The notes beneath the pieces were generated by a model. That model made no database searches. It was not told where the DNA came from and worked only from the letters and a program-made list of their open reading frames with translations. Both the position numbers and the translations under genes were made by a program. From Bathymodiolus brooksi (Eukaryota > Mollusca > Bivalvia > Mytilida > Modiolidae), in the NCBI GenBank assembly GCA_963680875.1, contig OY804583.1:35205331-35269330 (forward strand): DNA of 64,000 nt, written 5' to 3'. Shown here piece after piece: positions 4,058-18,070 of this stretch (within the stretch, counting starts at the first letter, position 1; each line of letters begins with the position of its first letter).

Positions 4058-7006
4058 TTACAATGTTTTTACGAAATAAGTGATGATTGAGACAGCTGCA
4101 TTGCATACGCAACCTAGCGTGTAAAATTTTCCCAGTGGAGTACCAATATAATAATAAATGGGTTTAGTATTGTTTTGGGGTTGAAGATTTGATTTAATTA
4201 TCTGAACAGATCTGCTTGATTTAATATTTTCTGGCTGTTGGTTCCATAGTTGTACACTGGAGGGTATGAAATAGCTTGCGAAGAGCGATGTTCGAGTGCG
4301 TACTGGAGGAATACGTGAGGTATGACGAGTATTGTGGTCATGGATCATGCCGACATTTTGCAAAATTAAGTTACTAAGATATTGAGGAGTTAGATTATTT
4401 GACATCTTATAAAATTGAATCGTTCTATGCCTTTCCCTTCTATCTTTCAATTTTTCTCACCCGGTTTCAATATATAGATTACATAAGGATACAAGTCTGG
4501 TACTCCCAGTCACGATCCTAGCAGCCTCAACCTGAACATTTTCTAGTTTGTTAATTAGTATTTGAGTCTTGGTATCCCAAACAACATCCGCATATTCTAG
4601 TAATGGTCTTATAAAAGTAATATAAATTGTTTCTAGAGTTTTCCGATCCAGTATAAATTTGAATTTCCTTAAAATGTTAACAAGTGAGAATGCTTTTTTA
4701 GTTATCATGTCAATATGTTTATTCCAATTACAATCGTCAGAAAGTTGTAGTCCAAGGTGTTTATGTTCAGTAACAGTACAAATGATAGTATTATTCATAA
4801 TAAGGTTAAAATTTACCAGCCATTTTGTAGACCATGCATATAATTTCACTAGGTCATCATTGAGTGTTTGTGCTGTTTCTTTTGGGTCGTCTACAATTAA
4901 GTACAGACTAGTGTCATCGGCAAATAATTGTATAGTCGAATTAATATCAGTCAGTATGTCATTTATGAAAACAATGAACAAAAGAGGGCCTAGAATCGAT
5001 CCATGGGGTACACCAGCATTTATATCACGCCAACTAGAAGTTGAATTATTAATTACGACACGTTGTTTTCTTTCAGACAAGTAGTTTTTCACCCAAGATA
5101 ATAATGATCTTCTAATCCCTATTGATTCAAGCTTACGAAGTAATCCCTTATGCCAAACTCGGTCAAATGCTTTACTTATATCGCAAAGGACAACTCTCAC
5201 TTCCTTACCTTCATTCAACGCTCTACCAAATTCATTTGTGATGTACAGAAGTTGATTAACGGCAGAATCTCCAGGAGTAAAACTAGATTGATGGGAAGTA
5301 ATTAAGTTATTGTCAATCAAATAGTTATAAATATGTTTATAGACTAATCGCTCCATTACCTTGGCAAGTATACTAATGAGGGAAATTGGTCTGTAGATTT
5401 TCAGATTACTGGGATAATCTTTTCTTAAAAACGGGGGTCAAATTAGCATATTTCCATTCTGATGGAAAGGTAGAAAGTGCTAATGATAAATTAAACAGTC
5501 TACATACGGGATATTTAAGTATAGATGCTGCTTCTTTAAGGAGCATAGGGTTCAACAGGTCAGGCCCAATAGCTTTAGATGTATCAAGTATCTTCAATAT
5601 ATCTTCCACTTCGTTTTCTGTAATAGTAATTTGTTCAAGACCATTGGTCAATATATCAGTAATATCAGGCACAAAAGTTTCAGAATCATTAAGGTCAGCT
5701 TGTTTGCAAAAATAGTCATTAAACAATTCAGCTTTTTTGTTATCGTCTTGTATCATGTCATTTTCAACTTGAAGTGGCGGGATAGATCGATCACCACCTG
5801 AATCACTGTGAAGAAGACTTTTGACTACATTCCACCAATGTTTACTTCCGTTTGTCTCCGTGTTTATTTTTTCAGAAATTTTATCAAAATATGATTGTTT
5901 TGCATTTAATATAAATTTATTACATTTATTGCGAATTTTCCGAAATTTTTCCCATTGTCCGATAGTATTAGTTTTCTTTGTTTTTTTGTGAATTAGATTT
6001 TTACGGCGCATGTACTTTTTTATTTTTGTAGTGATCCAAGGTGGATTATCTTTCTTTATCGTTATGTATCTATATGGAATAGTTTTATTCGCTGCATCTA
6101 AAATTGTGTTTGTAATAGTATTAGTTATGATATCAATGTCGTCGTTTCTAAAGATTCCATCCCAGTCAACAACAGAAAGGAGATTTCTGTAAGATTCATA
6201 GTCCCCTTTGTTGTAATGGAATATTTTCCTCTTAAATGAAGCATTGACTATAGTCGGGTGATTTAGGATACCAGTAATAGGTAAATGATATCTTACTTGG
6301 TTCAACAAGGGGGGGGGGGGGGGGGGGAGCGACTTCCGTATATAAAACACTCGTGGAATTATTTACCACAACCAAATCTAATAAAGATGAGCTATGCTCA
6401 GTCATGTAAGTGGGTTCCGTAATTAACTGTTGAAAGCTGTATTGGGTCAGTAATGAACTAAATTTGTTCCTATGATTGTCATTTAATTGGTTTATATTAA
6501 AATCACCAGTAATGATGATGTCATGGGTATTGCTTAATGCCAGATCAATTGATTGGTCTAGTTCAATCCCAAGTTTGCAGATTGCTATTGAGAGGAATAT
6601 AAAATGTTCCATATAAGTATTTGTTGTTCTTGATTTTTATATCAAGCCATATACATTCAAAATTCCCTATTTGTAGATCAGGTCTATGCTTACAGTTGAT
6701 ATGGTCTTTTACAAAAACCACCACTGCGCCGCCCATTTTGCCTACTCTGTCTCGTCGAAATGCGGGAAATTTATATCCGGGAATTTTAAGCATATCGTCA
6801 CTTACATGAGGGTGCAACCAGTTTTCCGTAAATGAGAGTATCACATGACAAGAGTATTCTGCGGCTATTAGATCTAATTTTGGTGTAATACTTTGAATAT
6901 TCAAATGAAGAAAGGAAACGGAATTATGTATAAAATTACTTACAGTCGTTGAGGTTGAACTGATACTACCGAACCTACTTGATAAATCTGAATCAGAGGG
7001 ACCAGG
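4058..7006 (-). pseudogene. CR1/Jockey-like LINE ORF2 (endonuclease + reverse transcriptase), major part
   Basis: On the minus strand the order is AP-type endonuclease (about 6983-6290; LNIQSITPKLD at the start, GDFNINQL, SLLDLVVVN), a linker, then reverse transcriptase (about 5400-4457; GVPHGSILGPLLF and the catalytic box FADDTSLYL), then a C-terminal tail with LWNQ. This enzyme nicks target DNA and copies LINE RNA into the nick. It is dead: a run of about 20 Gs at 6308-6328 separates the endonuclease frame from the RT frame, a frameshift lies near 5404, and an in-frame TGA sits at 4457-4459 where the family usually has Trp. The N-terminal end of the same ORF continues at 18065-18330, beyond the Polinton. 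Clade assignment within the Jockey superfamily is tentative. Confidence 0.88.
7001..7006. repeat. Target-site duplication ACCAGG, left
   Basis: ACCAGG directly precedes the AGTAGTAGGG terminus and is repeated at 18065-18070. Six base pairs is the usual Polinton duplication length. Confidence 0.95.
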
Positions 7007-7332
7007 AGTAGTAGGGTGTGTTCAGTTTTAGTCTCCCCAAAACCCGTGGCGTTGTGGCGTTCTCATATATGGGTAGACCCGCCCATATGCCATATAAGGG
7101 CATACCCCACCCCCCGGAGCTGACGTCACAAAAAAATTGAAATCCATATATGGTCATGACGAACCTCTCGTCGCAGTATGACTCATGGTAAAAGAATTCC
7201 CCGCACCCCGAGGACCAAATATGGTCCCCCTCGATGCAATGTGATTCATCACATTCCGCCGTCCCGAGCGCACGATGACTCAAAACGGAAGGGTGACATC
7301 CATATTAGGTCAGGATATGTATTCACCAATCA
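7007..7332 (+). repeat. Polinton terminal inverted repeat, left
   Basis: Matches the reverse complement of 17748-18064 with scattered substitutions. Shared landmarks include TGGCGTTG, CATATGCC, TGACGTCA, CCATATATGG, ATGACTCATGGTAAA, ACCAAATATGGTCC and the inner edge TTCACCAATCA. The repeat holds several CCATATATGG/CRE-like (TGACGTCA) palindromes that could act as transcription-factor sites for the genes just inside. Confidence 0.93.
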
Positions 7333-7399
7333 GAAACGTCCAACAGGCGTATACAAGACCTAGTTTCGTTACCCTGGCTTTATTCACAGGTCAATCGAG

Positions 7400-7906
7400 A
7401 TGGAGAACGCACGTTGTAACATCGAGTTAGGAAACAACAGGTTCGTTCAAGCTACTGAATGGAAAGACGAAATCCACATCGACATCAGAGAATGGGAGAT
7501 CAAGGACGAAAACAGATACTCACGAAAAAGAGAATCAGTCTCCCCCTACACAGATGGAAGATGCTCGTCGACAGTCGAGTTTTTGGACCAGACCCTTGAC
7601 GAAAAGAGGGAATACGCTACACACCTGGGAAGAAATGTGTACGCTATCGTGAATGCAAGCGGCATCTGCGTGGACCTTAGGCAACACTGGCTACCACCCA
7701 ATCAAACATATGTCGTGCCTACCAAAAAGAGAAGAACGTTAAGACCGGGAGAATACGCCAAATTGAAAGATGTGGCCAGTGTGATCTGTGATTGTGCACC
7801 AGAACTGAATTCGGTAGTACCGTGTCCTTACAGATCGGACCACATGAACCAGTTGGGTTTCTTATCATGTCGTGAATGCAACCCAGATCATTGTGCTGAA
7901 TGGTGA
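7400..7906 (+). CDS. Protein with two PC4 (p15 coactivator)-like repeats
   Basis: 168 aa, uninterrupted, the first gene inside the left inverted repeat. PC4 family proteins bind single-stranded DNA and assist RNA polymerase II. The first repeat (residues about 5-55) shows NRFVQATEW followed by IHIDIREWE; the second (about 78-122) shows YAIVNASGICVDLRQHW and then a basic KKRRTLRPGEYAKL segment, matching the PC4 order of a beta sheet with D-[IL]-R followed by a basic helix entry. A Cys-rich end (CDC, CRECNPDHC) may bind metal. Its job in the element, as transcription or replication helper, is inferred. It is one of the few unbroken genes here. The first ATG after a short AT-neutral leader was chosen as start. 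Confidence 0.7.
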   Translation: MENARCNIELGNNRFVQATEWKDEIHIDIREWEIKDENRYSRKRESVSPYTDGRCSSTVEFLDQTLDEKREYATHLGRNVYAIVNASGICVDLRQHWLPPNQTYVVPTKKRRTLRPGEYAKLKDVASVICDCAPELNSVVPCPYRSDHMNQLGFLSCRECNPDHCAEW

Positions 7907-8002
7907 ATAGATTGTGACATTTGTTACAATGCCGGACTAGTGAATGACATTGTGCATACTGTTATCTTGACATGTGTATGTGGATACGGTATACTTTAAA
8001 AG

Positions 8003-9005
8003 ATGGCATGGAGTTTTAATTTGGTTGTATATTTTTTGTTCCCCACGTATAATTCTTTTCGTCTTATATTGCAGGAACCTTCCAATCAATCTCCGCAACC
8101 GGGACCCAGTTCACTACCAGAACCATCCATCACCCAGGCTGAAAACAAGAACAGATGTCGGCGATGTATCCAGCGTTTCCCCGACCGTCGTCAACTCTAC
8201 CTCCACGGGATGCAGGAGCACTACCAATCAGGTGGTGGAGCCGATTTCGCGTACTGTGAGATGGATACAGACACGGAATACATGGCCCTGTCGGGACCCA
8301 CGTTCGCTTCGTCGTCAAACATGAAATTAAAGACTCATACCAACGAGCACTGACCGGATGTTGCAGGGATGATGTCGATCCACAATGGCTTCCGCGCATC
8401 TGCTATACAAAGCAGGCCAGATACGATAAGAGAACCCCCGGATTATTTAAACTCGAATACGAGGGTGACGTCATGATAGGATTCTGTTCGAAAACTTATA
8501 TAATCCAAAAGATCAACACCGTTCCCACTTCCAACACAAGGATGGCAGCCTTCCGACTCCTCAGACGTGCCAAGAAACTCCCGGTCAAACGACTCGTCCA
8601 TCGTCCACGACAGGTGCGTGAAGTGAAATTTATCTCCAAGGGAATCACCAAGAGACGGGTCAAGGCTCCCATGACCACCTTTCGACACGTTCTCAACACC
8701 CAACGTGTCAGGGTACGTTAAAAGGTTTCCGAGCTCGCAACAACGGCATAGCCACATACCAACAGAAAAGAAACGGGTTCTCGTACTTCTACTGCAAGAG
8801 GAGAGTCTTGGACGACGGGGTTTCCACCGTACCCCTAGATCTAGAGCTGTGTCCGATCAAAAAAGAACAGATTGACGAAGAGGAACAACCCATGGAAGTC
8901 GACGACACTGAAATGTCGATGGAGGTGGATACTCCTGTGGTGTTAAACGACAACGATAAATACCTTATTCATCTGTTGGAAACTAACTTTGAAAACGAAA
9001 AGTGA
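8003..9005 (+). pseudogene. Polinton DNA polymerase B, internally deleted and frameshifted
   Basis: Three parts of a protein-primed family B polymerase are visible. A C2H2 zinc finger (CRRC near 8158, two His in LHGMQEH) typical of the N-terminus lies downstream of an acceptor-like TATTGCAG at 8067-8074. It is joined directly at about 8240 to the palm motif C region (EMDTDTEYMAL, 8260-8290), so the exonuclease and motifs A and B are missing. After a frameshift near 8305-8320 the C-terminal region follows (TPGLFKLEYEGDVM at about 8425-8470, then FISKGITKR). A second frameshift near 8718 leads to the last part (FSYFYCKRRVLDDG) and an acidic tail ending at 9005. The internal deletion explains the element's small size and makes it non-autonomous. 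Confidence 0.78.
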
Positions 9006-9814
9006 CAGTTTACCCTGTAACATTTTTAGAATTGTATCCATTGTGTTTTACTATGTTTTCCATCTACATCGTAAAAATTACCGTAATAATGTATGTAAAA
9101 AGCATAGATAGGGTATATTTTTTTGTGCAACATTTGATTTCTTATGAATCTTATGAACGCTTCCCATACGTTTTCTATAATAAAAATTGAGCGATAAAAA
9201 TCTGAGAGGGTTAAATTTTAGTCGCTTAAAAAGCGAAGGTTAAGACATGTTACCGACGAAAAAAGTGTATTCATGGATTTTTAGTGGTTCAAAACCCTAT
9301 GGAAATAACGTAGGACTCGATTATTTTTCCTTTGTTATGACATTTTTACTCATCTTTTTTTGATTGTGTCTGATTTTTGTTTACTTAAAATCGATCGACT
9401 GTGAACAAAAAATGTCCAAAAAATGACACGTGAAGGAAATTTTGTCGGTTTCCATATGTTTTCTATAATAAAAATTGAGCGATAAATATCTGAGAGGGTC
9501 AAATTTTAGTCGCTTAAAAAGCGACGGTTAAGAAATTTTATCGACGAATAAAGTATATTCGTGGATTTTTACTGGAAATGACGTAGGACTCGAATATTTT
9601 TCCTCTGCTATGTAATTTTTACGCATCTTTTTTTAATTGTGTCTGATGTTGTATGTATGATTTTAAGTGTCTGAACTTATTTTCTGAGTATATATTGTGT
9701 TTATAGGACGATAGAAAGTGAATATGATTTGGGTTTTTTTCCGAATTGTGTATATATTATTTGACTGTATATATTTTGTATATTTCTCGTGTGAATAAAC
9801 AACATACTCCATCG
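9006..9814. other. Non-coding AT-rich centre with a direct duplication
   Basis: No gene. Bases 9163-9380 and 9451-9650 are diverged direct repeats (shared CGATAAAAATCTGAGAGGG-type core and AGTCGCTTAAAAAGCGA palindrome) about 288 bp apart. This is where plus- and minus-strand transcripts converge, so the AATAAA-type sites (9796, plus) may be 3' ends. That role is inference. Confidence 0.6.
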
Positions 9815-10062
9815 TATTTCTTTTTCGCAAGTGGAAAAGTTTATCAGTTGTTTGCCCAGAGTCGGTGGTTCTCATCGGGTACTCCGACTTCCTGCAACAC
9901 GTAATCCATTGTATTTCTTTTTTCGCAAGTGATAAAGTTTACCAGTTATTTGCCCAGAGACGGTGGTTCTCACCGGGTACTCCGGCTTCCTCCACCACTA
10001 AAACTGATCGCCACGATATAGCTGAAATCTTGTTGAAAGTATAGTTAAACACCAAAAATTCG
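9815..10062 (+). repeat. SINE tail, two tandem partial copies
   Basis: CGCAAGTGGAAAAGTTTA (9828) and CGCAAGTGATAAAGTTTACC (9925) each start a copy of the tail; the second runs through GCCACGATATAGCTGAAA to TTAAACACC. The same sequence lies at 25975-26112 and inverted at 43310-43450. It is a host SINE-type insertion into the Polinton centre. Confidence 0.75.
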
Positions 10063-10140
10063 TATTTCTTTTTACACATTTTATTTAATCAGGCTCATGG
10101 AGAAGTTACACAATAGACCATACACACAAATACACATTTT

Positions 10141-10329
10141 TTAAAACGTACAAATACAATATAGCAATACACAATATTCTGAAAATACACGTAAAAAGTC
10201 AAAGAGTGATCCGGGTCGGTTTTTTCTCTGCTCGGATCTGCTGTGACGTCGTCCATGACGTTTTGTTGAGATCGATTTGGAGGCGAGACGTTGGTATTTC
10301 TCGTAATGTATCAATATCATTTTCTCCAT
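10141..10329 (-). CDS. Small basic ORF, possibly a fragment of a conserved Polinton gene
   Basis: The first ATG (10329) opens MEKMILIHYEKYQRL, which resembles the start of a small protein I associate with animal Polintons. The remainder is Arg/Ser-rich and runs into AT-rich sequence, suggesting truncation or frame loss. It would be the last minus-strand gene. No function can be given. Confidence 0.35.
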   Translation of the reverse strand: MEKMILIHYEKYQRLASKSISTKRHGRRHSRSEQRKNRPGSLFDFLRVFSEYCVLLYCICTF

Positions 10330-10415
10330 GATCGAGAGCTTACGACGTTCAATAGATGAACGATGGCGGTGGTCTTGCTTTGTAGAGCTTTTAGTTTATC
10401 CCGCCTTTTCGTCGA

Positions 10416-10631
10416 CTATTTTCCCAAGACGCTCAGCACCTTCTTGTTCTTCTTCATTCTGTTTTTATCGGACGGAGACAGAATGACGCTTCCTTTGATG
10501 ACGTTGTGAGCGATTTCGCTTAGGGCTTTCAGCTGCAACTTGTCGATGGTTCTCAACAACGTTTGTCTCTGAAGTTTCCGAGTGGTGCGTAACAACTCTA
10601 AGAAGTGGTCTTGTTCCAGGAGTCGGCCCAT
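10416..10631 (-). CDS. Small basic conserved Polinton protein, copy 1
   Basis: 71 aa from ATG 10631. A Leu-rich helical first half (FLELLRTTRKLQ) is followed by LSEIAHNVIKGSVIL and a Lys-rich end (KKNKKVLSVLGK). Small proteins of this pattern are common in animal Polintons and adintovirus-like genomes; a virion-core or membrane role has been suggested for similar proteins but is not shown here. A paralogue lies at 15120-15478. The start lies 30 nt after the ATPase stop, and a TATAAGAGG motif spans that stop at 10657-10665. The frame is open further upstream, but that part overlaps the ATPase in another frame, so ATG 10631 is preferred. Confidence 0.65.
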   Translation of the reverse strand: MGRLLEQDHFLELLRTTRKLQRQTLLRTIDKLQLKALSEIAHNVIKGSVILSPSDKNRMKKNKKVLSVLGK

Positions 10632-10656
10632 TTTTTCTCGTCCATCTCTAGTTCTT

Positions 10657-10665
10657 CCTCTTATA
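10657..10665 (-). promoter_or_regulatory. TATAAGAGG motif 34 nt upstream of small basic protein 1
   Basis: The minus strand reads TATAAGAGG; the TAA is also the ATPase stop codon. It is the first of seven such motifs on this strand of the Polinton. It is a candidate TATA-type core promoter. Confidence 0.45.
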
Positions 10666-11187
10666 AATGCTTGGGAGCGTACACTATCGGGACCTCTCCC
10701 GGGAACACGCGTGTTCTCAGTCTGTAGGTGTCTTCCGAGTGAGGTGACATGTCCATGACCAGGTATCCGAACGGAAGCGAAGTGGCGTCGGCGAAAGCGG
10801 ACGTCAATATCTTGGAGCGTCCGGGAGAGTTGTCTCCCCAGCGTGGCGACCTGAGACACGTCCCTTACGTTTTTCATCATGACGAGATATGTCGTGTTTA
10901 ATGCGATGGTTCTCGATTTCGTTCCTCTGTGGAAAATGTTCTGTGTGATGAACACGACGCTCAGTTTGCGGTGGTGACATCCCTGGGTAAATAACAATTC
11001 CATGTCCACGTTCTGTACGACTCGGTGCATCAAATCGTCCAACACGATCACTCGGTGACGTCTGTCTGCCGTGAAATCGTCGATGACTTCCGGTGAGGGT
11101 AGTCCTTGGTAAAACGTGATGTTTGGGATGGTCTTTTCCATTTCTTCGAACAGCGGCTGGTGAATGCCGAAACAGTACATGATCTCG
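10661..11187 (-). pseudogene. FtsK/A32-type genome-packaging ATPase, C-terminal part
   Basis: Second part of the ATPase that pumps DNA into the capsid. The Walker B segment VIVLDDL is at about 11055-11030, followed by a sensor-like SVVFITQN and the ALNTTYLVMMKN block. A frameshift near 10826 moves the remaining ~55 codons (YLVMDMS, YRLRTRVFPG) into another frame, ending at TAA 10661. The first part, with Walker A, is at 12365-12495. The palindromic insertion between them is flanked by a 6-bp duplication. Together the two parts give about 220 codons, the normal length for the family. Confidence 0.85.
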
Positions 11188-12364
11188 GATAATATGAAGC
11201 AGCCGGTGCGATACTGGTATTACCAGTATTGTAATATTTACAATACTGGTATTACCAGTATTATAATATTCACAATACTGGAAATACCAGTATTGTAACA
11301 CTGTACAATACTAGAAATACCAGTATTGTAATGTTACAATACTGGTAATACCAGTATCGTACATATACAATACTGGATGTACCAGTATCGTGCATTTACA
11401 ATACTGGAATACCAGAATCGTTGATCTATACACAATACCGGAAACTCCAGTATTCTTCATCCAACAATACTGGTAATACTAGTATTGTAAAACACACGAT
11501 ACTGGAAGCTCCAGTATTCTTCATCCAACAATACTGGTAATACTAGTATTGTAAAGCACACAATACTGGAAACTCTAGTATTCTTCATCCAGCAATACTG
11601 GTAATACTAGTATTGTAAAACACACAATACTGGAAGCTCCAGTATTCTTCATCCAGCAATACTGGTAATACTAGTATTGTAAAACACACAATACTGGAAA
11701 CTCTAGTATCTGGCAATTTGACATGAGTGGGCAGAGCCTAATTCTAACGGTAAATCACAGCTCATTGTATTTACCGTTAGTATTAGGCTCCGCCCAGTCA
11801 TGTCAAATTACCTTACCAATATATATCAAACTCTAAGGGACCATACAAAATATTTTGACATTACAGGGCTTTTGCCTCTTATGTTATGTACAGCAGAAAT
11901 GACGTATGAGTATGAATTATATTCAATTCTTTTAGTATAATGTAGGCATAAAACTCGGGTTAACCGGAATTCTACCTAATCTTCCAATATCTGCAATACT
12001 GGTATAACCAGTATTTTCCAGAATCTTCCAGTATCTGCAATACTGGTATTACCAGTATTTTCCAGAATCTAACAGTATCTGCAATACTGGTATTACCAGT
12101 ATTTTCCAGAATCTTCCAGTATCTGTAATACTGGTATTACCAGTATTTCTCAGAATCTTCCGGTATCTACAATGCTCATATTTTGGCAATGACCAGTATC
12201 TTCTAGTATTGCAGATACTGGAAAATTCGGGAAGATACTGGGATACTAGTATTTACCAGTATCTGTACCAGTATTGCAGATACTGGAAGATACTGGTAAA
12301 ATACTGGTATTACCAGTATTGTGTACCAGTATTGTAATACCAGTATCGCGGCCGGCTGCTTCAT
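11188..12364. mobile_element. Palindromic-repeat insertion (1,177 bp) inside the ATPase gene
   Basis: It is flanked by ATCTCG at 11182-11187 and 12365-12370. It has terminal inverted repeats containing ATGAAGCAGCCGG (11194) and CCGGCTGCTTCAT (ending 12364). The interior is dozens of short palindromes of the form CAATACTGGTAATACCAGTA, in about 50-60-bp higher-order units (11440-11700 and 12000-12345). A separate hairpin module sits at 11710-11815. There is no protein. The direct duplication plus inverted ends mark it as a transposed element, not local slippage; its family is unknown to me. Confidence 0.85.
11710..11815. repeat. Hairpin module in the centre of the palindromic insertion
   Basis: GACATGAGTGGGC...CTAACGGTAAAT at about 11720-11755 is followed by the matching reverse complement ATTTACCGTTAG...CATGTC to about 11810, separated by a ~15-bp loop. 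It lies between the two palindrome arrays and differs from them in sequence. Confidence 0.75.
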
Positions 12365-12495
12365 ATCTCGTTCGGAGGGTCTTCGACGTACATGTCCTTG
12401 ACGGTCTTCAATAATTGGAAGACGAACCGGGTCTTTCCACTTCTCGTTTGTCCGGTCACGCACGTACTGCTGCAAGGTAAGAAGGGAAACACCAT
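12365..12495 (-). pseudogene. Packaging ATPase, N-terminal part with Walker A
   Basis: ATG 12495 opens MVFPFLPCSS and leads to the Walker A box GQTRSGKT at about 12453-12430, followed by a helix FVFQLLKTVKD. The frame is cut by the palindromic insertion at 12364 and resumes, after one copy of the 6-bp duplication, at 11187. An ATAAGAG motif lies 35 nt upstream of the start. The Walker lysine and threonine are intact; the gene is disabled by the insertion and by the later frameshift near 10826. Confidence 0.85.
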
Positions 12496-12523
12496 GATTC
12501 GAATCGGCTCGCTCCTTCTTCTT

Positions 12524-12530
12524 CTCTTAT
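12524..12530 (-). promoter_or_regulatory. ATAAGAG motif 35 nt upstream of the ATPase
   Basis: The minus strand reads CATAAGAG; its TAA is also the stop of the small frame at 12527-12676. Same spacing to the start codon as at 10657 and 15113. Confidence 0.4.
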
Positions 12531-12676
12531 GATTTGGCCACTTTCAACGTGGAACTGGGTGGGGCGTATCCGATGGCACTGCTGAGTAAGGTGATCCACA
12601 GTTCGTTTTTCCCGTTCTGTAGCGATAGGTTGACGATCGACGTGCTACTCTCTCGATCCACGATGTCCTCCTCATT
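12527..12676 (-). pseudogene. Small ORF between protease and ATPase, frame broken after its ATG
   Basis: An ATG (12674) overlaps the protease stop as ATGA, the junction style used by other genes here. That frame soon diverges, but the neighbouring frame is open for about 48 codons: an acidic start (EEDIVDRES), a hydrophobic WITLLSSAIGYA and an end at TAA 12527. This fits a small membrane-associated or structural protein with a one-base indel just after the start. I do not recognise a family. Confidence 0.35.
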
Positions 12677-13121
12677 GTATTCTCTTCTTTCCTGTTATGA
12701 ATTTCAGCACTTTTCTATCGTTTTCCTCCAACTTTTCTCTGCTGAAGTCTTTCAAGACGTCGCGGAAAGAACGGTGTCGATATCGCTCTCGAACGAAATG
12801 AATGCAGTAGGCTTCGCAGGTATCGCTGTCTTCCGGTTGAATTTGGTCCGGCGTGTAAAGATATCCCGGTCCGTTGTTGGCTAGGACGTATTCGAAGCGT
12901 GAGTTGTAGGTTTTCGCTCGCTCACCCATCGAGTCGAAAAATTCCGGAGGTCCGAGTCGAGGGAAATGGAACACGGTCCAGTGCGATCCAGGCAGCGAAC
13001 ATGGATCGGTGTTGACGACGTACGTTCTGGGTCTCTTCCCGATCGAGATGGGCAATTCGTCCGCACAAGTCACTCTGACGGGGAAGTATTTCAATCGTCT
13101 TTCCAGTTCCAAATTATTCAT
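12672..13121 (-). CDS. Adenain-type cysteine protease (virion maturation)
   Basis: 149 aa, uninterrupted. Polinton proteases belong to the adenovirus protease (C5-like) family and are expected to cleave capsid precursors. Visible residues are His47 in GSHWTVF, Asp63 in FFDSMG, Gln95 ahead of the nucleophile and Cys102 in SDTCEAYC, the order expected for a His-Asp/Glu-Gln-Cys site. The length is somewhat short for the family, as adenain is about 200 aa. ATG 13121 overlaps the capsid gene's TGA (ATGA). It is the only morphogenesis gene with catalytic residues and frame all intact; whether it is expressed is unknown. Confidence 0.85.
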   Translation of the reverse strand: MNNLELERRLKYFPVRVTCADELPISIGKRPRTYVVNTDPCSLPGSHWTVFHFPRLGPPEFFDSMGERAKTYNSRFEYVLANNGPGYLYTPDQIQPEDSDTCEAYCIHFVRERYRHRSFRDVLKDFSREKLEENDRKVLKFITGKKRIQ

Positions 13122-14363
13122 TGCAGCAAGACACTGCGGGATTTATCCACGTGTACGATCCGCGGAAACTTGCCGTACATGAGAACTGTAACGCTTTCCG
13201 GTAGGGCCGTACCGAATCTAATTTCAAAGCGACAATCTCCTCTGCGTTTGGTATTGAAGTCGACGTCGTCGTCCACGTTCAGGACGTAGATTGCGTATCA
13301 TCCACCGTAGGCTGCGTAAGAAACGTCGACGTCGTTTCTAAAGACCGACAACGTCCTGTAGGCTTCCACGTAGTTTTTTTGGTGAAGTTGGGCTATAACG
13401 GTTTGGCCGGGTACGATTGTCCGTCGAGGTACAGGGCCAGAAAATTACAGTCGAACGGTTGGAAATTGAACAGCGACTTATTACTTCCACTGAAGGCTTC
13501 GCTGCTGACGAGTCCCACGATCAGTTGCGAGGGGACGTCTCCCTGGAACAGGTTGCTCTCGCTGTGGATGTACTCTCCTTTATACAGGGAAGCGATCTTG
13601 AAGAACGTACTGACGTACGGATACATGGCCGTCCCGTTGGCCAATAGTTTACTGTGGGCCATCAACACTCCGGCGTTGGGTTTCTGAAGACACAGCTTGA
13701 AACTGGCGTCCAGGATCTGTACTGTGTAGGCGGCTCCTTCCTCGCCGGACATCAGGCGAAATGCGTTTTTCCTGGGCCATAGCTTCAAGGTCAGACTGAC
13801 TCGTTGACGATCAAACGTTTCTGTCTAAAGACGTCTAGGTGAAGGGGTCCTTCCAATTCCAAGAGGCGACCTTCGTCCGTATACATGGAGCGTGTGTACA
13901 GACCGATGTTGGCTCCATTTCTCACGTCGTCGTGGTATCCAGGTGAGTCCTTCTCGAAGAGTTGCGAGTCCCGTAGCACTCTGTCGTTGGCACCCGTCTC
14001 CAGTAGCGTGTCGATGTAGGCTTTGTAATTGGTTCCGGTCTGCGTAACGGAAGTTTGTTGGAGACTGCAATCCACTTGCGAAAAGACGGCTTGTAAGGGA
14101 AGATTGACCAATCCGACGTTGGCGTCTTTGGCGACGGGCTGTCCTAGGGCGTTGGTGAGTCGAAGTTTGATTTTCAGAGTAATTCACCTCAGATCCATGT
14201 ATCCGACAGACTGCGGTGGAATCAGAAACTCCAACGGGAATTCCCCGCTTATTTGGTTGGTGGGTCGGTATTCGATCCATTGTCTGGTGTGGACACCCGT
14301 ATTGGTGAGCGGAGGCGTGAATACCGACAGTTCGTCTTCGTGGTTCTCTTCCAAGTGGTTCAT
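13118..14363 (-). pseudogene. Major capsid protein (double jelly-roll type), multiply broken
   Basis: About 415 codons from ATG 14363 to TGA 13118. The N-terminal part (ELSVFTPPLTNTGV, FLIPPQSVGYMDL) resembles the start of Polinton capsid proteins. The centre (about 14100-13800, LPLQAVFSQVDC) and the C-terminal jelly roll (about 13750-13395, LLANGTAMYPYV, NLFQGDVPSQLIVGLV, FNFQPFDCNFLALYLDG) follow in order. Damage comprises TGA 14184-14186, a frameshift near 13798, TAG 13393-13395, a frameshift in a 7-A run (13374-13380) and TGA 13298-13300. The start overlaps the upstream stop (ATGA) and the stop overlaps the protease ATG. Fold assignment rests on pattern and gene order. Confidence 0.75.
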
Positions 14364-14674
14364 GGTTCGTCCAGTTGGATGAAAGAACCTCTGCGTTTCT
14401 TTCCTCTTATAACTTTCTGTCGAGCCAATTCCGATTTGGCCATCTCGAGAGTCTGCGCCACCGGCGTCACCAGTTCGACTTTGGGAGTTTCTGGTTCGAC
14501 TTTGTGAGTGTGGGGTCGCCAGCGGGCACCGTTTCCCACGAGATATCGGCGTCTGTGATCGGCTCGAGCTCTTCCCTCCGACACGTCGGTAAGGTGCTGC
14601 TCCCATTTCTTGTAGTCGGGTACGTAGGGTACCCATCGTTTGTTCTTGTGATCGTAGATTTCTATAGACCCCAT
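14360..14674 (-). CDS. Conserved 104-aa Polinton protein of unknown function
   Basis: ATG 14674 opens MGSIEIYDHKNKRWVPY, followed by KKWEQHL, RRRYLVGNG and later AQTLEMAKSEL, ending in a basic stretch and TGA overlapping the capsid ATG. I recognise this layout (short beta start, WEQH, RY-VGSG-like, helix) as a small protein that often sits beside capsid genes in animal Polintons. No biochemical role is known to me. The frame is intact. Its start lies inside the 3' end of the upstream gene (14-bp overlap). Confidence 0.55.
   Translation of the reverse strand: MGSIEIYDHKNKRWVPYVPDYKKWEQHLTDVSEGRARADHRRRYLVGNGARWRPHTHKVEPETPKVELVTPVAQTLEMAKSELARQKVIRGKKRRGSFIQLDEP
14403..14411 (-). promoter_or_regulatory. 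TATAAGAGG motif 48 nt upstream of the capsid gene
   Basis: It reads TATAAGAGG on the minus strand, inside the coding frame of the 104-aa protein (codons for VIRG). Candidate core promoter of the capsid gene. Confidence 0.4.
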
Positions 14675-15084
14675 CTTCGTTTTCTCAAATGAAGCGTGCA
14701 GTACAGTCGATCGATTTTGAATCGACAGGGTTGAAGTCGATCGTCTCTTATAAATATTCGCACTCGATTCAACTCCATCTGACGCATCCTCGTGTAATAG
14801 GGTCTTCCGAATTTTAGGTCTAACGTGCCCACCTGCGTCGGGTCGACGGAGCGCAAAACCGGCAGGAAAGTATTTTTCAGGTACGAGTCTTGGACGAGAT
14901 CGGAGCACAAGCAGAGACGTTCAGTTCGTCGCTCCGTCTGCGGATGCAAGGTCAGTTCCGTCAAGGCGCATTCCCAGCGTCCTTCCAACAGATACGTCCT
15001 GGGTAAGTCCACCACGAAGTCTCCGGCGTTCACGTGGGTCGATAACGAATCCCCGCAGTACAGATACAAGTAAAATTCCTCCAT
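14662..15084 (-). CDS. Minor-capsid (penton-like) candidate
   Basis: 140 aa from ATG 15084. The start FYLYLYCGDS is followed by GDFVVDLPRTYLLEGRWECAL, a pattern (small beta protein with a G-x-WE-x-AL block near residue 40) frequent in Polinton and adintovirus-like minor virion proteins. Later segments FLPVLRSV and RLYCTLHLR also fit. The frame is intact. The start lies 36 nt after the stop of the upstream gene and behind a TAATAAGAGG motif. Assignment as penton/minor capsid is by pattern and position, not certain. Translation from ATG 15084 is chosen because codons further up are not ATG. Confidence 0.5.
   Translation of the reverse strand: MEEFYLYLYCGDSLSTHVNAGDFVVDLPRTYLLEGRWECALTELTLHPQTERRTERLCLCSDLVQDSYLKNTFLPVLRSVDPTQVGTLDLKFGRPYYTRMRQMELNRVRIFIRDDRLQPCRFKIDRLYCTLHLRKRRWGL
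14744..14752 (-). promoter_or_regulatory. TATAAGAGA motif 78 nt upstream of the 104-aa protein gene
   Basis: The minus strand reads TATAAGAGA within the minor-capsid-like frame. Same motif family as the other sites. Confidence 0.35.
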
Positions 15085-15112
15085 GATCACTTTGTCTGTA
15101 GGGTGCGCAGTT

Positions 15113-15122
15113 CCTCTTATTA
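15113..15122 (-). promoter_or_regulatory. TAATAAGAGG motif 36 nt upstream of the minor-capsid-like gene
   Basis: The first TAA is the stop of the small basic protein; ATAAGAGG follows at once. Start-codon spacing equals that at 10657 and 12524. Confidence 0.4.
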
Positions 15123-15478
15123 TTGTTTGCCGGACCGAATCGATAAGACGACGGCTCGATTCAGGTAGTGCGGTCTCAGTAAACGAGGCACGAAGTTATG
15201 ATACGTCACCAGTGTGTTTCTCTTACGTCGTAACGACATTCTGGGATCGATGACCTGTCTCAAGATCAGCGACCGTTCCCTAAAATGTGTGGTGTCTTGT
15301 GGGAGGACGCGAATGGATCCTCGAACGATGTAGCCCGCGACTTCCGCCAAAGCTTCCATCTGTTCTCTCGTCATGTAGCGCACGAGCAGTTTTCTGATCG
15401 TCTTGTTGGCTTGTCCTAGTTCCCTGAGAAAATGAATGCATCGGTACACGAGGGATTGATCTATGATTAGAAAGACAT
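15120..15478 (-). pseudogene. Small basic conserved Polinton protein, copy 2 (frame broken near start)
   Basis: About 115 codons. The segment FLRELGQANKTIRKLL, then MEALAEVAGYIVRGSIRVL and a basic middle (MSLRRKRN) parallel the 71-aa protein at 10416-10631 position by position, so the two are paralogues within one element. The likely ATG (15478) overlaps the integrase stop as TAATG but runs into a stop after three codons; the conserved frame is one base away, implying a single indel. The C-terminal extension (RLLRPHYLNRAVVLS) is absent from copy 1. Confidence 0.6.
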
Positions 15479-16574
15479 TATCCCTCCGATCTCTTATAGT
15501 CTTTTAGCGAGGCCGTGGGTATCCAGCTTTTGAATTTCGAGGGCCATCCCATCCATTTGACTAACGCGTCATTGCGTCGTCGGCGTAGAACTTTTTCGAT
15601 CATGTACACCGTCTGCTCGGTTACCTTCACTCCGTTCAATTCCGGTTGATAAAAGTACCCTGTTCGGCGTCACCGGACGTATCCTTTAACGTGTAATATG
15701 GTATGCCTTCCTTCATGCCTCGACCGTCCACCACGAAATATTCCATCGTCCATCGTTCGTCGTATTCCCTATCGAACGGTTGTCTCACGTGCGAGATGCG
15801 AACAGTGTCTCCTTTCCGGAACGCGTAGCGTCGTGTCAGTGCCTTGGCGTACTGTCTGGTGGTCTACTGTAGTTTCCACAAACGGGTTTCGTCTTTCATG
15901 GTCAACGCTCGGGGAGCCATCTTGATGGAACGATGATAGCTTCCGTTGTAGCTCTGGGTGATCTCGTCGAGAATGTCGATCCAGCGATGAGTTTGATGAC
16001 GGGATAGGTAACGGAAGAGTTTGAACTTCAGCGTCTTGATGCATCTTTCGGCGTAGGAACTCTTCTGTTCGTTCTGTGTGTAGAAGTGGTCCACTCTCTC
16101 TTGGCCTTCAAGAGTCGTTGCACCTCTCTGTTCCGGAACTCGACTCCCTTGTCGGTTCTCAGCTTGGTGGTTTTTTTTACCTCGACGGAATAAAATCTGC
16201 AGCGCGGACGACATGTCCTTATCTCGAGTCGAGCGTAAGGGAAACGTGTGTGCGAAGCGGGAAAAGACGTCGATGGTCACTACAAAGTAAGCGTACCCGT
16301 CGTTGTCTTTGGCAAGCGATTTCATCACGGCGGTATCGGCGTCCCACTGGTAGTCGATGAACGGGGAGATCACTTTGCGTCTACTGAATTTTCTGTTGAT
16401 CTGTCTGTGCAGACCGAACGTTTCTTGTGTTTCCAACCATTTTCTGATCTTGGCTTTTCCCAGCACGTATTTTCCTTCTTGGCGGACGACCTTGTACAGT
16501 TTGTCCACGCCACCAAACGAACCCGGATGTTGCGGGTCGTAATAGATCTTTTCCAAGTAGTCTTGATAAGTCAT
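15479..16574 (-). pseudogene. Polinton retroviral-type integrase with chromo-like C-terminus
   Basis: About 365 codons from ATG 16574. It joins element ends to target DNA. The N-terminal DNA-binding part (HPGSFGGVDKLYKV, residues 16-29) is followed by the catalytic core, with first Asp in QWDADTAVM (about residue 80) and TIDVFSRF; the second Asp (RTDKG, about 16150) is legible only in a neighbouring frame, because the main frame slips in an 8-A run (16171-16178) and returns near 16100. The Glu region YTQNEQKSSYAER follows. An in-frame TAG at 15864 and a slip near 15655 precede a chromo-like tail (MIEKVL, LVKWMGWPSKFKSW). The protein is inactive as read. Confidence 0.88.
15490..15498 (-). promoter_or_regulatory. 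TATAAGAGA motif just upstream of small basic protein 2
   Basis: The minus strand reads TATAAGAGA 20 nt before ATG 15478, inside the last integrase codons (YKR). Confidence 0.35.
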
Positions 16575-16578
16575 CGTC

Positions 16579-16785
16579 TTATTGAATCCTCTTCTTTTCG
16601 TCCAGAAATGTCTCGATCATCTCGTATTTCCACCGAGGTTCTGTCAAGTATTTGTCTTTTAGGTATTCTCTCGCTTTTTCGAGATTGGTTTTACTCATGG
16701 CCACGTACACGTCGCTTGGTTTCGTCGCAGACAGTAAAAGAACGTACGTCTTATCCACCGACCACGTATCCCCTCTTATAAGCAT
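16579..16785 (-). CDS. Unrecognised 68-aa ORF upstream of integrase
   Basis: The frame is open from ATG 16785 (MLIRGDTWSV) to a stop 2 nt from the integrase ATG. It has a hydrophobic strand (YVLLLSA) followed by charged helices (NLEKAREYLKDKYL) and a basic end. The ATG overlaps the TBP-like gene's TAA. I do not recognise a family. Tight packing between two recognised genes supports it being real. Confidence 0.5.
   Translation of the reverse strand: MLIRGDTWSVDKTYVLLLSATKPSDVYVAMSKTNLEKAREYLKDKYLTEPRWKYEMIETFLDEKKRIQ
16772..16780 (-). promoter_or_regulatory. TATAAGAGG motif at the TBP-like gene stop
   Basis: The minus strand reads TATAAGAGG; the TAA is the TBP-like gene's stop codon (16776-16778). 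The next ATG on this strand beyond the motif is about 85 nt away (VAMSKT), so the promoter reading is weaker here. Confidence 0.3.
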
Positions 16786-17282
16786 AGAGCGAGTTCTAAT
16801 AGTACGTTACAAATATCGTCCAGGTCACTCGACCGCTTGATTCCCGTGATCATCGTCTTTCTGGACAGGTGACAGATGAAATGCATGCGTGACGTCGGAA
16901 CATGACGGCAGGAAACAGTTCGGGTTCATAACTAAAGTCTTTTGGCAATCGAGTCGGGTCGATTCTGTCGGTCAATTGGTGAGCTGCGAACGCCGTGACC
17001 ACTCGGACGTTGGTGAGTCGTACGGGATAATTCATCTTTTGTAATATTCTTGCGTATCGGCGAAGACGAGGTCGACCGTCTTGTAGGGAAAGGCATTTCC
17101 CGTTACAGTAGATTTTTCCCGTTGGAGAACAGCAAGCAATTTCCTCCTATCTTTCGATGTTGACAAACGACAGCGGAAAACACTTTGGGGTCGTAGCGGG
17201 CATTCGTCAATCGATACGACAGCACGCGTAGATCGAGGCTGCATCCGAAGTAGGCTTGTACCACCACGTTGGTCAGTTACAT
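16776..17282 (-). pseudogene. TATA-binding-protein (TBP)-like protein, two-repeat core, frameshifted
   Basis: TBP binds the TATA box through two ~80-residue repeats. The first repeat (about 17277-17115) reads LTNVVVQAYFGCSLDLRVLS, then YDPKVFSAVV and CLLFSNGK. The second (about 17020-16776) reads YPVRLTNVRVVTAF, FSYEPELFPAVMF, then MITGIK and CNVLLEL. Between them RRYARILQKMN matches the inter-repeat helix. Three of the four intercalating-Phe positions are Phe (VFSAV, LLFSNGK, LFPAVM); the fourth reads Leu (CHLSRK). It is disabled by a TAA as codon 2 (17277-17279), a slip near 17125 and a slip near 16890. The start overlaps the CARD gene's stop. The length of about 165 codons equals a bare TBP core. 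This is not a standard Polinton gene as far as I know. Confidence 0.82.
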
Positions 17283-17640
17283 TCTAAACGATCAGCCAAA
17301 TCCTCGAACTCTTACAAACGAAGGGCTTCGACGAAAGCGAAAAAGCCAGGGGTCCTCTTCTCACTAGGATCATCAACAGTTGTCGAACTTTATTCTTCGC
17401 CATGTTTTGGAATAAAATGTCTTCTGCTTATTCGTCGTTGAGAATGCGTTTCTCTACCAGATGTCTTACCACGGGATCTACGGGAGTTTCGGTCACCAGA
17501 CGGACGAAATTCTTGAAGAGCTTCTTTTTATCGCGTGTGTCCATGGGGAAGGTTCTTGAGAAAATAACGATAGTATCCAAGAAATTCGACATATATATGG
17601 TGTCTAGGTTTGATTGGTCTATTTCAATTTTTTTTTTCAT
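17273..17640 (-). pseudogene. CARD (death-fold) domain gene, broken by stops and a frameshift
   Basis: CARDs are six-helix interaction domains of caspases, Apaf-1-like and innate-immune adaptors. The frame opens at ATG 17640, but a second ATG at 17544 (MDTRDKKKL) matches the usual domain start. The helix pattern then follows: KKLFKNFVRLV, VVRHLVEKRIL, a TAA at 17428 within the helix-3 region, AEDILFQN, KVRQLLMILVRRG, a slip in a T-rich tract near 17335, FVEALRL, a TAA, and EFEDLADRL, ending at TGA 17273. The order and spacing fit CARD helices 1-6, with the conserved KVRQLL-x-RRG core. It is the outermost minus-strand gene beside the right inverted repeat, the usual place for cargo. A captured host apoptosis or immune regulator is the natural inference; function is not shown. 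Confidence 0.75.
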
Positions 17641-17747
17641 TGGTGGGTACGTATGCTTCGATCGGTGTGAAGGTGAGTCATCGAGTCGAAATTATGTATT
17701 TTTTTCATATTTTTAATTTTTGCGAGGTCAGGTCCGGGGTGGGGCTA

Positions 17748-18064
17748 TGATTGGTGAACACACATCAATATGGATGACACCCTCCCTTTTGAGTTATCAT
17801 GCGCTCGAGACGTGGAATGTGATGAATCCAACGAAGGGGGGACCATATTTGGTCCTGCTGGTGCCGGGAATTTTTTTACCATGAGTCATACTGCGACGAG
17901 AGGGTCGTCATGACCATATATGGATTTCAAATTTGTTTGTGACGTCAGTTCCGGTGAGTGGGGTTATGCCTTTACATGGCATATGGGCGGGGTCTACCTA
18001 TATATGGGAACGCCGCAACGCCACAGGTTTCTAGGGGGACTAAACTGTCCTCTTCCCTATTACT
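17748..18064 (-). repeat. Polinton terminal inverted repeat, right
   Basis: Mate of 7007-7332; it ends CCCTATTACT at 18064. Diverged from the left copy by scattered changes, so the insertion is not recent. Confidence 0.93.
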
Positions 18065-18070
18065 ACCAGG
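18065..18070. repeat. Target-site duplication ACCAGG, right
   Basis: Second copy of the 6-bp target sequence; see 7001-7006. Confidence 0.95.

Follow-up and report, generated by a model that had tools for sequence, protein, structure and literature searches.

A divergent TATA-binding protein and a PC4-type coactivator in a Maverick/Polinton-like element lineage of Bathymodiolus brooksi

Can a mobile element in an animal genome bring a TATA-binding protein (TBP) of its own? The question arises from a 64,000-nucleotide stretch of the Bathymodiolus brooksi genome (contig OY804583.1 of assembly GCA_963680875.1, positions 35,205,331 to 35,269,330; hereafter the window), where a first-pass annotation had placed a broken TBP gene inside a Polinton and proposed that the element brought its own core promoter factor. 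The element occupies positions 7007-18064 of the window (11,058 bp) and is Maverick/Polinton-like, with inverted repeats and AGT-type ends. Our analysis supports TBP as a regular cargo of an element lineage, not a chance landing. We put at roughly 60% the probability that this lineage carries a divergent, two-repeat TBP and a tandem PC4 as regular genes, with a presumed role at the element's own promoters.

The TBP gene and its relatives

Judged by its sequence matches, the gene at 16776-17282 (minus strand) is a TBP gene, the remains of a complete two-repeat core that a stop at its second codon and two frame changes have broken into three frame pieces. Its position, strand and damage were as first described. 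Repeat 1 (17106-17276, minus) matched PF00352 in the Pfam scan (2.7e-10; 40.4 bits against a cut-off of 22.9) and human TBP as its top PDB match (5.6e-10). The next piece (16853-17146, minus), which holds the inter-repeat helix and the first part of repeat 2, matched PF00352 weakly (0.002; 18.3 bits, below the cut-off) and again had human TBP first in PDB (4e-7). The end of repeat 2 (16779-16925, minus) alone matched no Pfam family. All three pieces were recovered by a family profile of 94 database relatives, which matched only these among 1230 window open reading frame (ORF) pieces (1.4e-36 for 16853-17146, 8.9e-25 for 17106-17276 and 1e-12 for 16779-16925) and had no match among the 10,544 ORFs of 10 shuffled sequences; the test is partly circular for 16853-17146 because the relatives were gathered using that piece. 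These matches bear out the TBP identity proposed from the letters.

A database search with a 98-residue TBP piece returned 45 proteins, and a profile of 18 of these returned 269, of which the 120 listed are described here. Fifteen of the 18 were exactly 168 residues long or differed by a few, without an N-terminal extension. Two PF00352 stretches were present in P0066, P0092 and P0104 and one in P0061. The seven listed relatives with an organism name were all bivalve and came from five genera (Mytilus edulis, M. galloprovincialis, Crassostrea virginica, Pinctada imbricata, Tegillarca granosa and, twice, Mercenaria mercenaria), and four of the named species represent four orders of Autobranchia. 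Some are annotated as TBP, TBP 2-like or TBP-like 1, and the element family probably explains why bivalve annotations contain such "TBP-like" gene models. The relatives from Crassostrea, Pinctada and Mercenaria are full-length TBPs; the Mytilus models read on in a wrong frame, and the Tegillarca model joins TBP to the integrase. Many other relatives sit on short metagenome contigs. Four database proteins, two of them TBPs, occur letter for letter in loci of the B. brooksi genome (P0016 and P0019 in L010, P0165 in L026 and P0173 in L027), so the metagenome relatives may be animal DNA, not free viruses. No relative was found in phage records or prokaryote genomes, nor in viral contigs, for which the queries were the TBP piece, two alignments of TBPs, a set of cellular TBPs, two DNA patterns, the integrase and PC4; the absence from viral contigs is weak evidence because the scan with cellular TBPs returned no giant-virus TBP either, which marks the route as insensitive.

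In a tree of 62 rows, comprising 56 of the 139 proteins from the TBP searches, two window pieces and four cellular proteins (human, yeast and Arabidopsis TBP and human TBPL1, with viral and host bivalve TBPs left out and a long-branch warning on TBPL1), the family and both window pieces were split from the four cellular proteins by a branch with support of 100/100. Both window pieces grouped with P0001 and P0003 (98/99). Three family members were 30-32% identical to human TBP, compared with 81% between yeast and human TBP.

Copies in the genome and the case for regular cargo

The 2.0-Gb genome contained 19 matches to PF00352. Fifteen, including that of the window, belong to the element TBP family and are spread over nine contigs. 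Two more fall in exons of the host's own TBP gene, which lies on C2, is split by introns over several kb and has four stretches 77, 84, 97 and 97% identical to human TBP. The remaining two, on C1 near 159.95 Mb, were assigned to an intron-split, TBPL1-like gene, and only the first of them lay within the stretch examined.

The surroundings of TBP are shared among the copies. From the terminal inverted repeat (TIR) inwards, the window element has an upstream ORF (17287-17550, minus), TBP, a small ORF (16582-16806, minus) and an integrase with an rve domain (15867-16616, minus; PF00665 1.6e-4, under the cut-off); at the other end PC4 comes first, and both ends read inwards. The small ORF and the integrase that the first-pass annotation mentions are thus present. 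In searched flanks of 1.5 to about 4 kb, varying by locus, so that all counts are lower bounds, an integrase followed TBP in the same orientation in at least 10 of the 15 loci (41-91% identity in the nine outside the window). The upstream ORF preceded TBP in at least 8 of 15 (the other seven being L006, L008, L009, L010, L011, L014 and L017), the small ORF followed it in at least 7 of 15 (elsewhere L006, L008, L009, L011, L014 and L017), and the window's TIR was found at 7 or more of the 15. Beyond this genome, the Tegillarca protein P0092 (283 residues) matched PF00352 in its first half and, weakly, rve in its second (0.0028, under the cut-off), and the window integrase is 57% identical to this integrase half (E 2e-46). 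The Mytilus protein P0061 and a further database protein, P0058, run past TBP, with matches that continue in another frame into the small-ORF region of the window, and P0009 spans the end of the upstream ORF into TBP.

TBP and PC4 were also seen at opposite ends of complete elements. A genome search for PC4 gave 150 matches, from 150 of 669 candidates scored, so that TBP-PC4 partners are a lower bound. Four of these matches lay 14.9-18.1 kb from a TBP locus and faced it, with PC4 at the far end as in the window; by calculation, the chance that a random site lies within 20 kb of one of 150 PC4 sites in a 2.0-Gb genome is about 0.3%. Each pair was bounded by TIRs and a perfect 6-bp target site duplication (TSD), which defines elements of 16.5-19.6 kb at C3 49187716-49204237 (TSD AACTTG), C14 71050141-71069785 (TACAAT), C1 105845890-105863825 (ATTATT) and C3 49076493-49094755 (TTTGTG). 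Together with the window, a perfect 6-bp TSD thus flanks all five elements for which both ends were located. AGTAGT was read at eight further ends (L022, L029, L034, L009, L011, L006, L017 and L010), and ATTAGT at the left end of the C1 copy. Left and right TIRs of the five elements were 87-95% identical (over 149 bp only in the C14 copy), so these are not fresh insertions. About 93 kb separates the two C3 elements, which point in opposite directions (49.08-49.20 Mb).

The linkage of TBP and integrase in 10 of 15 loci, the Tegillarca model and the four further full-length elements with TIRs and TSDs support TBP as regular cargo of the lineage, in agreement with the earlier proposal that the element brought its own TBP. 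Related elements with TBP between terminal repeat and integrase, which that proposal had suggested looking for, were found in this genome.

Substitution patterns were examined as the ratio of nonsynonymous to synonymous change (dN/dS; NG86) over 54 in-frame codons of repeat 1 in 10 of the 15 loci (45 pairs, 18 of them saturated at synonymous sites). Ratios were 0.10-0.16 between families (15 pairs) and 0.43-1.41 within families (12 pairs, with few changes each), the latter indicating drift. Constraint between families with drift within them is the pattern expected if TBP is required for as long as the element moves, with decay setting in after each insertion.

Several results weigh against this interpretation. 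Five of the 15 TBP loci had no downstream integrase: in L004 and L005 a fragment of the integrase flanks TBP on its opposite side, L002 (= L018) and L013 showed no integrase in the searched flanks, and L017 has the TIR, upstream ORF, TBP and small ORF without an integrase match. Most TBP copies are decayed, the frame being open over 168 codons in 2 of 15 loci (L003 and L010), and no PC4 partner was seen for 10 of the 15, partners being a lower bound as stated. The dN/dS values rest on a single 54-codon piece, and only 4 of the 15 between-family pairs have dS below 1 (0.80-0.93; dN/dS 0.12-0.16). The labels given to the ATPase, protease and capsid genes of the window come from motifs seen by eye, and hmmscan and PDB searches gave nothing significant for them. 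Finally, no protein-primed DNA polymerase B (PolB) of family PF03175 turned up at 20 kb or less from the 15 TBP loci (91 of 195 genome candidates scored), and three interior stretches beside PC4 showed no PolB (L051, of which 10 pieces were scanned against Pfam; L050, compared with three window ORFs; and L052, read by eye).

The last result bears on what the element should be called. TIRs with (AGT)2-type ends, the 6-bp TSD and an rve integrase with a chromodomain are Maverick/Polinton traits, and in these respects the earlier Polinton call holds; a polymerase near the TBP loci is the part that was not recovered. Since ends, duplications and integrase fit and no PolB was found near the copies, we use the label Maverick/Polinton-like. 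Perhaps the TBP-bearing lineage is non-autonomous in this genome; alternatively, decay may have gone too far for its polymerase to be recognized. Genome-wide there are 128 PF03175 matches, some in open frames of more than 1300 residues and none near a TBP locus, so other Polinton-like lineages in this genome may be more intact.

Two readings would trace the gene to the host instead. A recent retrocopy of host TBP or TBPL1 that landed in a Polinton by chance, an alternative raised with the original description, would account for the intronless reading frame. The host TBP on C2 is, however, a different gene, split by introns and far more conserved, and the TBPL1-like gene on C1 is split as well. 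The family is only 30-38% identical to host TBP, with no close match to a host TBP seen; three of its members are 30-32% identical to human TBP, and the family is set apart by the 100/100 branch and occupies the same place in many elements. We therefore rejected the retrocopy and give it next to no chance. A family of bivalve host TBP paralogues, captured late by elements or merely repeated alongside them, fits the bivalve origin and TBP-like names of the matched proteins and the five loci without a downstream integrase. It accounts poorly for the ten loci beside an integrase, the scatter of 15 loci over nine contigs, the window's TIR at seven of them, and two near-identical Mercenaria proteins from contigs that differ in size, and we consider it very improbable.

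Possible roles of the element TBP and PC4

Regular carriage of TBP by the element lineage raises the question of what the protein would do. The family TBP has the saddle fold of cellular TBP (31% identity to human TBP in the fold match). Its TFIIB-docking motif is conserved in the alignment, where at least 88 of 94 rows retain three of the four intercalating phenylalanines; at the fourth position 62 rows have His and 25 have Phe. Conserved changes of DNA contacts affect the equivalents of N253, V255, T218 and, mostly, F301, with Asn to Thr, Val to Ser and Phe to His in repeat 2. These changes, concentrated in repeat 2, suggest that a core element other than the canonical TATA box may be read.

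The PC4 (SUB1/p15)-type coactivator ORF of the window (7364-7903, plus strand, with a methionine at 7400) lies just inside the left TIR, is open throughout and matched PF02229 above the cut-off (2.8e-7; 30.4 bits, cut-off 25). Its second half matched human PC4 weakly in PDB (0.016). The database held 72 other relatives, of which the seven named are all Mytilus. Five scanned relatives matched PF02229 at 1.8e-17 to 6.8e-24, four of them with two PC4 stretches, and the family has a C-terminal tail rich in Cys and His. About 15 codons of the window ORF (residues 41-55) differ from most relatives as if frame-shifted; a fold prediction with this partly damaged ORF as its first row gave a pLDDT of 42.7 and was not used. 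The window's TIR adjoins the PC4 ORF in 13 of 30 PC4 loci examined (L020, L022-L027, L029-L032, L034 and L035), and because only four TIR-flanked PC4 loci pair with TBP, many TBP ends may be lost or decayed. A second high-copy PC4 group (L036-L049) matched the window PC4 at 1e-5 in 12 of 14 loci (25-38% identity), and in L042, L047 and L048 the stretch also holds an ORF with Walker A- and B-like motifs that resembles a packaging ATPase; many Polintons of this genome may therefore carry PC4.

Together, TBP and PC4 suggest that some of the machinery for switching the element's genes travels with the element itself, and we infer that its TBP would work as a core promoter factor. In an active element, this TBP would bind element promoters in place of TFIID and use its conserved second stirrup to dock the host's TFIIB and RNA polymerase II, while PC4 would help to open or activate those promoters; element genes would then be transcribed independent of host promoter choice. 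The most specific version, a private initiation module in which a re-tuned TBP reads an element-specific core promoter alongside a PC4 doubled within one chain, with TFIIB and RNA polymerase II still supplied by the host, is tentative, possible rather than probable. If true, it would be an orthogonal core promoter system in animal nuclei, kept through much of the autobranch bivalve radiation.

The same features can be read in other ways. As a decoy, the element TBP would capture host TFIIB or occupy host TATA boxes and so shut down host transcription, which would suit both the conserved TFIIB-docking motif and the bare 168-residue core of most relatives. The conserved changes of DNA contacts would, however, probably weaken competition for host TATA boxes, and a PC4 on the same element points to activation; we regard a decoy as unlikely, with some plausibility left to it. 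The TBP fold bends DNA, and the gene adjoins the integrase near the TIR, so that an architectural part at the inverted repeats, in replication, integration or packaging and outside transcription, might also be imagined. Such a role would not need the TFIIB-docking motif that the family has kept, and it has a slim chance. A TBP and a PC4 serving the element's own promoters is thus the reading we favor, and with these elements one could test whether Mavericks regulate their own expression. As a natural, divergent TBP lineage, the family also allows one to ask which DNA and protein contacts of TBP can change.

The window element and comparison with known systems

The window element is flanked by copies of ACCAGG at 7001-7006 and 18065-18070, a perfect 6-bp duplication read directly from the sequence. 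The left TIR (7007-7306) begins AGTAGTAGGG and is 87% identical over 288 bp to the right TIR (17767-18064); the two ends read AGTAGTAGGG and AGTAATAGGG (AGTAGT and AGTAAT). The GC content is 45.5% in the element and about 35% in its flanks. Reading by eye, we noted TATA-like words of the types CCATATTTGG and CCATATATGG in the TIRs, CCAAT words inward of both element ends, and TATATATG about 50 bp ahead of the ORF upstream of TBP. That ORF had been called a CARD gene; it recurs beside TBP in other loci, and pieces at 17287-17691 matched no CARD in Pfam or PDB, which leaves the label unconfirmed. The integrase chromodomain (15481-15669, minus; PF00385 2e-4, under the cut-off) recurs in L003, L006, L008, L009, L011 and L014.

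The interior is degraded. A plus-strand ORF at 8000-8350 has a C2H2 zinc-finger-like stretch by eye and no Pfam match; in the C1 copy an ORF near PC4 has zf-C2H2 at 1.4e-12 (L051:966-1346), and window ORFs compared with L051 by tblastn gave no match. An ORF at 8260-8718 (plus), which we take by eye to resemble the C-terminal end of a Polinton PolB, matched nothing in Pfam or NCBIfam. On the minus strand, a packaging-ATPase-like gene is split into a first part at 12361-12543 (Walker A-like GQTRSGKT by eye; family matches insignificant) and a second at 10416-11219 (Walker B-like VIVLDD by eye; no Pfam match). Between them lies a tandem-repeat stretch (11238-12337, extent judged by eye from ORFs and repeat family D6), within which the D6 array at 11238-11749 has a 32-bp spacing. 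An adenain-like protease ORF (12672-13142, minus) was recognized by a motif seen by eye, with no Pfam or relevant PDB match, and ORFs at 13393-14183 (minus) are putatively capsid-protein-like by resemblance and had no Pfam match.

The bivalve elements share with vertebrate Mavericks, as the available text describes them (PMC8097293), the (AGT)2//(ACT)2-type ends, long TIRs, perfect 6-bp TSDs and a chromodomain integrase, the full-length copies here being 16.5-19.6 kb. They differ in carrying TBP and PC4 and in having no PF03175 PolB near the copies examined. The accessible text of that paper mentions no TATA, TBP or transcription factor (PMC8097293), that of a survey of protist integrating viruses no TATA, TBP or PC4 (PMC10120064), and that of bivalve genome papers Mavericks without TBP (PMC10294476; PMC8905726). 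Our literature search found no earlier report of TBP or PC4 as cargo of a Polinton, and one further paper that it returned (PMC7786948) is unrelated; subscription journals were mostly outside its scope, so a report elsewhere is possible.

Virus-borne TBPs are described, in the portions available, for giant viruses (Nucleocytoviricota) and mirusviruses (PMC10132985; PMC12085832; PMC11464507), the mirusvirus case in PMC10132985, and algal elements that putatively derive from mirusviruses are listed with a TBP (PMC10675990). Among the first three sources, the CpV-BQ1 paper proposes that viral TBP and TFIIB redirect host polymerase. TBP is common to all nuclear transcription, and the viral TBPs in the portions of these papers available belong to very large genomes (a mirusvirus contig of 431.5 kb), whereas here TBP stands in an animal element of less than 20 kb that has another general cofactor as well. 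Among the viral fold matches listed, 50 in number, identity to the family TBP is 8-20%, in contrast to 31% for human TBP. With cellular TBP (PF00352) the family has in common the two repeats, the saddle, three of four intercalating phenylalanines and the TFIIB-docking motif; it differs in its 30-32% identity to human TBP, in mostly lacking the N-terminal region and in its changed contacts. The element PC4 likewise has the domain of PC4/SUB1 (PF02229) above the curated cut-off, and its relatives differ in having two PC4 domains per chain (4 of 5 scanned) and the Cys- and His-rich tail.
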